Source: Alphaproteobacteria bacterium (GTDB taxonomy: Bacteria > Pseudomonadota > Alphaproteobacteria > TMED109). From it: DNA of 64,000 nucleotides. The notes under the pieces were generated by a model, which saw nothing but the letters and a program-made list of their open reading frames with translations, had not been told where the DNA came from and searched no databases. The translations under genes and the position numbers were made by a program. Below are positions 15,765 to 16,667 of this stretch, piece by piece (positions within the stretch are counted from its first letter, which is position 1; each line of letters opens with the position of its first letter). The stretch covers positions 1 through 64,000 of the forward strand of contig JAJEGJ010000053.1 of NCBI GenBank assembly GCA_022819905.1, in the 5' to 3' direction.

Positions 15765-16379
15765 TCACGTCGAGGCGCGGTGTCGCACGGACCCGACGAC
15801 AATTCCCTTGATTTCGAATTGGCCGTCGCCAGACGAAACGCGCTGAAAGTCAGGGTTATCGGGCACCAGGTCTGCGTGCCCGTTGTCGCGGAGCAGCCGG
15901 CGAACGGTGACGTCGCCGTCCACTGCGGCCACGACCAGGCTGCCATGCCGGGCGTCCGAGGCCTTCTGGGCAGCGACGAGATCGCCGGCATGGATCCCTG
16001 CGCCCGCCATGGATTCGTCCCGGACCCGCAGCAAGAAGTCCGTCCGGGTTCGGAACAGGGCGGTCGCGGTCGATGCGGAGACGGAGTCCTCGATGTTCTC
16101 CTCGGCGAGCAGGTCGGCGTCGGGGACGATCCGGCCGATAATCGGAATGTCGTCGGCGCCGGAAACCGGGCTCGCCAGACCAACCCGCCGGGACTCGCCG
16201 TGAACGATCTCGATCGCGCCCTTGCTGGTCAGGCGGTTCAGGAAATACTGCACCGTGCCCAGGGACTCCCAGCCCATGGCGATTCGGAGTTCTGTGCGCG
16301 ACGGAACCTCACCCGTCCGCTCGACGTGCCGTTCGAATGCTTCCAGGAGCTTCGCTTCGCGGCGGGTGAGATCAGGCAT
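15765..16379 (-). CDS. LexA-like repressor lacking self-cleavage residues
   Basis: A 204-residue two-domain protein aligning along its length with LexA. It has a winged HTH (residues ~3-65, with PSRTELRIAM and GTVQYFLNRL) and a peptidase S24-like C-terminal domain. The start is the ATG at 16379, because upstream extensions are not LexA-like. The catalytic Ser is present (Ser123 in DESMAG), but the catalytic Lys is Arg160 (VTVRRL instead of VTVKRL). The Ala-Gly cleavage dipeptide is Pro86-Asp87 (GRIVPDADLL instead of GRVAAGEPLL). The protein should thus bind DNA and dimerise but not self-cleave after DNA damage. It is followed downstream by a non-coding gap and converges on the phosphatase gene. 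A candidate operator lies upstream. Confidence 0.82.
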   Translation of the reverse strand: MPDLTRREAKLLEAFERHVERTGEVPSRTELRIAMGWESLGTVQYFLNRLTSKGAIEIVHGESRRVGLASPVSGADDIPIIGRIVPDADLLAEENIEDSVSASTATALFRTRTDFLLRVRDESMAGAGIHAGDLVAAQKASDARHGSLVVAAVDGDVTVRRLLRDNGHADLVPDNPDFQRVSSGDGQFEIKGIVVGSVRHRAST

Positions 16380-16397: not shown

Positions 16398-16413
16398 GTC
16401 TAGACCTTGTCTA
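16398..16413 (-). promoter_or_regulatory. Candidate operator of the LexA-like gene (GTCTA direct repeat, 11-bp period)
   Basis: GTCTA occurs at 16398-16402 and again at 16409-16413, a direct repeat with exactly one helical turn, 19-34 nt upstream of the LexA-like start codon. The spacing equals that of the alphaproteobacterial LexA box (GTTC-N7-GTTC), and the first copy is part of the palindrome GTCTAGAC. Autoregulation is inferred from position only. Confidence 0.4.
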
Positions 16414-16667
16414 CCATACCGCGGCTTTACAGTTTGCCGAGCCCCCGTCCGAACGGGTCCCATCATCAGGACGTGCGGATAGGTATCTGCACCGATCCGC
16501 TCCTGACTCGGCTTCCGATAGCTGATAGCCCGATCCGGGCCGCGCCGATGTCCCCATCGAGGTCGGGAACACTCACGCGGCGAGCGCGTTCTCCAGCCCG
16601 AGAAACGAGGCGGCGGTCCCCGTGCCGAAGCCCCGCCCGCCCGGCCCCGCCGAGCGCGGACGAGACG

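Follow-up and report, generated by a model that had tools for sequence, protein, structure and literature searches.

A lexA-like gene in the 64,000-nucleotide stretch of alphaproteobacterial DNA analysed here (the window) encodes a full-length LexA homologue in which the scissile bond and the catalytic lysine are replaced, and it accompanies a canonical LexA throughout its genus. We consider it reasonably probable that a horizontally acquired LexA was turned into a constitutive, RecA-insensitive DNA-binding regulator beside the native LexA.

A full-length LexA homologue

The gene is read from the minus strand, which the sequence-only reading had not specified; the plus-strand frame at the same coordinates was rejected. 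The gene and its two domains are as follows.

15765..16379, minus strand: lexA-like paralogue, 204 aa, ATG start, stop codon included (ORF and translation)
16182..16379, minus strand: N-terminal LexA winged-HTH domain, residues 1-66 (PF01726 residues 1-64 and alignments)
15783..16151, minus strand: S24 (LexA-type) C-terminal domain, residues 77-199 (PF00717 residues 88-195 and predicted-fold match)

The translated protein begins with MPDLTRREAKLLEAF. In the NCBIfam profile search it matched TIGR00498 (LexA) over residues 1-200 with 145 bits (cut-off 110.95), and the matches to PF01726 (LexA_DNA_bind) and PF00717 (Peptidase_S24) both exceeded their gathering scores. The E. coli LexA structure 1jhf aligned to residues 2-200 (E-value 2e-34). 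Judged by these matches, the paralogue is a full-length LexA homologue and a member of the LexA sequence family TIGR00498. The sequence-only reading, which had described a LexA homologue keeping the HTH and the catalytic serine, was borne out by TIGR00498, PF01726 and the alignment of Ser123 with E. coli Ser119. Given the passed TIGR00498 cut-off, automatic annotation would name the protein SOS repressor LexA.

A structure model was obtained with AlphaFold2 from 23 sequences (modest mean pLDDT of 78.5, pTM 0.58), in which the linker was poorly predicted. The predicted fold matches LexA, the G85D mutant 1jhf being one of the best matches, and the predicted C-terminal domain alone gave a TM of ~0.85 to the LexA C-terminal domains 8b0v and 7b5g.

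Cleavage site and catalytic dyad

The residues of the self-cleavage reaction were located by alignment to E. coli LexA.

16119..16124, minus strand: Pro-Asp codons 86-87, at the place of the scissile Ala84-Gly85
16011..16013, minus strand: Ser123 codon, equivalent to E. coli Ser119, retained
15900..15902, minus strand: Arg160 codon, standing where E. coli has the catalytic Lys156; CGC here, AGG in the clade of G001 and G006

Both replacements had been pointed out in the sequence-only reading, and the 1jhf alignment and a residue table agree with it: P86-D87 stands at A84-G85, S123 at S119 and R160 at K156. Ala-Gly, Ser and Lys occupy these positions in all 57 rows of the comparison set, which consists of LexA proteins of the same class and phylum and leaves out the degenerate genes of this genus. 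Because every row keeps them, the double change (Gly85 to Asp and Lys156 to Arg) is, by this alignment, far outside normal LexA variation.

Alignment of homologues from related genomes, which had been proposed as a check on fixation, gave Asp87, Ser123 and Arg160 as invariant in the six complete orthologues of the genus. The dyad thus keeps its Ser and has Arg for its Lys in every complete copy, and the scissile Ala-Gly (or Cys-Gly) bond is replaced in all six by Asp preceded by Pro, Ser or Ala. The pair is Ala-Asp in G001 and G006, Asp being common to all; the suggested order of changes would be Asp first, with Ala84 lost only in the clade other than G001/G006. Arg160 persists although the two clades encode it differently, by CGC and by AGG. 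AGG is one base away from the Lys codon AAG; nonetheless Lys is absent at position 160 in the six complete orthologues. Sequencing error was ruled out, as the same residues occur in six complete copies from separate assemblies.

Replacement of Gly85 by Asp is known from E. coli as lexA3(Ind-); the mutant LexA is non-cleavable and retains binding to RecA filaments but does not induce SOS (PMC6363387). The earlier statement that each change alone blocks autocleavage is therefore documented for G85D. It is plausible for Lys to Arg, for which no open paper with a measurement was found; the open literature searched held nothing usable on K156R or on natural loss of the catalytic Lys. Arginine is a very poor general base. 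Its substitution for the general-base Lys should likewise disable catalysis. As the Gly to Asp change equals lexA3/G85D and both replacements have reached fixation in the genus, loss of self-cleavage is well supported at the level of sequence. The paralogue very probably cannot switch SOS on, and it should not be filed as an SOS LexA because two features of a self-cleaving repressor fail. In it the best-known mutation abolishing LexA cleavage has become fixed naturally throughout the genus.

Canonical LexA and SOS in the host

The genome of the window has a second, canonical LexA (G000:C74:69263-69898) with Ala-Gly, Ser and Lys intact. A search for such a gene had been recommended, and its finding rules out the paralogue as the sole LexA of the cell. 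A canonical LexA with the same residues is present in 7/7 genomes of the genus (dN/dS 0.00-0.09). The genome also contains recA, split over two contig ends, L101 (G000:C47) and L102 (G000:C52); since the two pieces overlap in sequence, the split is apparently an assembly break. Because recA coexists with an intact canonical LexA under very strong constraint, the host most likely keeps a normal SOS switch. Of the earlier view, a repressor not inactivated by RecA and no SOS response, the loss of cleavage agrees with the sequence, and the second part gives way to a probably intact SOS. The paralogue is most likely an extra LexA gene, and not the SOS repressor minus its switch.

Two further S24-domain proteins lacking the LexA HTH are encoded at G000:C14:6368-6736 and G000:C79:39018-39386. 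Both resemble the ECH_1013-type regulator family, below its cut-off.

Origin and distribution

In the phylogenetic tree, which has long branches, the paralogue groups with the gamma/beta-type LexA (support 100/99), apart from its genus's own alphaproteobacterial LexA and hence outside that native lineage; the gamma/beta label refers to the position of E. coli LexA in the tree and to the group lying outside the class of the window. The gene was probably acquired horizontally, before the genus diversified. Orthologues are present in 7/7 genomes of the genus (that of the window, five further complete copies, and one cut at a contig end in G004). None was found outside the genus among the sampled genomes of the order, class and phylum or in a contig scan, which relied on two short peptide motifs and could have overlooked diverged copies. 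An origin as a phage or plasmid gene was rejected: phage records, plasmid records and viral contigs contained nothing closely related, and the best phage- or plasmid-record matches are ordinary LexAs of about 36% identity. Those relatives that bear names are MAGs of uncultured alphaproteobacteria, one of them labelled Rhodospirillales.

The gene neighbourhood is identical in the seven genomes, with the nth side alone on the contig in G004. Its order is amidase, CysZ/EI24-like, metallophosphoesterase, lexA-like paralogue, nth, SDR, GST-like, ketopantoate-reductase-like and GST-like; the ketopantoate-reductase-like gene and the second GST-like gene were named by our own reading of the sequence and the others by family match.

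Two other LexA-like genes were observed in the genus. G005 carries one at L045:6446-7060 (minus strand), with 39% identity to the window protein; its cleavage site reads Pro-Asp, and the dyad positions hold Ile instead of Ser and Gly instead of Lys, taking the same degeneration one step further. In G006, L047:6213-6884 (plus strand) encodes a LexA-like protein that lacks both Ala-Gly and the catalytic Ser. The gene lies divergently next to an ORF of 936 aa whose product has an integrase core and a Mu transposase C-terminal domain (TnsB-like). The protein is possibly a transposon regulator derived from LexA.

Upstream region and operator search

Two elements were noted upstream of the paralogue.

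16410..16419, minus strand: GTATGGTAGA, tentative extended -10-like element (alignment and upstream listing)
16401..16413, no strand assigned: perfect palindrome TAGAC-N3-GTCTA, candidate operator, 22 bp upstream of the start

TGGTAGA is kept in 6/6 upstream regions of the paralogue; a sigma-70 consensus scan gave no match. The palindrome (TAGACCTTGTCTA) occurs once in the genome and is absent upstream of the sister-species orthologues, where the G005 upstream listing is spoiled by masked bases (N). No conserved operator emerged from the upstream comparison and the genome palindrome search. The GTTC-N7-GTTC LexA box was found neither upstream of the paralogue nor in front of this genome's canonical lexA, which makes the pattern a weak test.

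The recognition-helix region of the paralogue, ESLGTVQYFLNRL, is near-invariant across the genus. E. coli has RSPNAAEEHLKAL at this place, and the native LexA is likewise different. Because the helix is unlike both, the paralogue probably recognises an operator other than those of E. coli and native LexA.

The canonical lexA promoter (L007:5890-6100) has TTGACT-17-TAGAAC together with TTGTTGCGAACAA and GAAC-N6-GAAC. This spacing departs from the GTTC-N7-GTTC usual in alphaproteobacteria, and a variant SOS box may be in use in the genus.

Selective constraint and possible roles

Selection was estimated as dN/dS among the genus orthologues by the Nei-Gojobori method with our own script, on small samples without confidence intervals. 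The overall value is 0.21-0.41. In the more distant pairs the HTH gave ~0.19-0.27 and the C-terminal domain 0.14-0.22, and in the more divergent pairs the linker/cleavage segment gave 0.59-0.95. From this contrast between segments, both domains appear to be maintained and the old cleavage loop appears to be relaxed. A pseudogene is unlikely, because the frames are open and the overall dN/dS stays at about 0.21-0.41.

The reading that we favour would run as follows. A LexA of the gamma/beta-proteobacterial type would have been acquired horizontally and retained next to the native alphaproteobacterial LexA, and would have lost self-cleavage through the changes of A-G to X-D and of Lys to Arg. 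It would be retained for DNA binding by its winged HTH and for its S24-fold domain, and would probably be dimeric. As a constitutive regulator insensitive to RecA it may act on its own small gene set, with control by its own abundance or another signal. Several points stand against a regulator: no operator was identified and the window palindrome is unconserved, the gene evolves several-fold faster than canonical LexA (dN/dS 0.21-0.41 vs 0.00-0.09), its more degenerate relative L045 in one species could mean drift, and Ser123 is kept without obvious need if catalysis is gone.

The kept Ser123 and the constrained S24 domain would also fit an SOS damper, in which the uncleavable paralogue docks on RecA filaments, competes with canonical LexA and delays or grades SOS induction, DNA binding being secondary. 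E. coli LexA G85D binds RecA* uncleaved and in vivo seems to be a competitor for RecA* sites (PMC6363387). However, the HTH is about equally constrained, which a pure decoy does not need, and the cleavage loop is variable. This role is therefore possible but unlikely. We hold it doubtful, slightly more so, that the lineage has domesticated an uncleavable LexA either as a RecA-filament-binding damper or as a parallel repressor opposing its own cleavable LexA; if true, this would make an SOS circuit of two LexAs that carries its own brake.

Alternatively, a horizontally acquired lexA may have lost its role and be drifting towards loss. The faster evolution relative to canonical LexA, the still more degenerate L045 and the identity in the deepest pairs (72-73% vs 81-92% for flanking genes) would all agree with decay. 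However, the frame is intact in 6/6 complete copies, the gene is kept in 7/7 genomes, dN/dS is well below 1 in the HTH and C-terminal domain, and Asp and Arg are invariant, so that we regard decay as quite improbable. Slow or altered cleavage, in which Ser123 paired with Arg160 or another base cuts the original bond or some other one, or a separate protease (Clp, for example) inactivates the protein on a signal, would explain the serine in 6/6 complete orthologues and has precedents in IrrE/DdrO and HdiR-Clp, repressors cut or further processed by another protease, but it is very unlikely given the poor basicity of Arg, the block of E. coli cleavage by the G85D equivalent alone (PMC6363387) and the neighbour family matches in seven genomes, among which no partner protease gene adjoins the paralogue.

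Whether dimerisation, RecA docking or another need keeps the S24 fold in place is now directly testable.

Comparison with known LexA variants

The structure 1jhf shows E. coli LexA with G85D, and 8b0v its P. aeruginosa counterpart with G91D. Together with E. coli LexA3 (G85D, Ind-) they share with the paralogue the Gly to Asp change at P1' in an otherwise LexA-like architecture. However, in those cases a sole SOS repressor was mutated in the laboratory, whereas the change in the paralogue is fixed in nature and accompanied by Lys to Arg.

Natural loss of LexA cleavage is already known, with the LexA of Synechocystis sp. PCC 6803 as precedent. This protein is uncleavable, with Gly-Gly for Ala-Gly and Asp for Ser (PMC3091678), and two further papers describe non-SOS targets or roles (PMC4759255, PMC7567884). 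Like the paralogue, it is natural, is without the Ala-Gly bond and has a changed dyad residue. It differs in being described as the LexA of that strain and in having lost Ser, whereas the paralogue coexists with a canonical LexA, keeps Ser and has lost Lys.

Leptospira interrogans LexA2 is a second, horizontally acquired LexA beside the resident one; it has a Cys-Gly bond, retains both dyad residues (Ser and Lys) and is no longer seen after UV, in keeping with cleavage (PMC3789691). Both proteins are second LexAs, the paralogue probably acquired like LexA2, but the dyad is kept by LexA2 only. The paralogue combines the situations of Synechocystis (natural and uncleavable) and Leptospira (acquired second LexA), and it shows how a LexA can escape RecA control, because a canonical LexA is present in the same genomes.

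The GIL01 phage protein gp6 is also a LexA homologue; it does not itself act as SOS sensor and has a DNA site of its own, is an HTH-only truncation and activates transcription (PMC6182141). Unlike gp6, the paralogue is full length.
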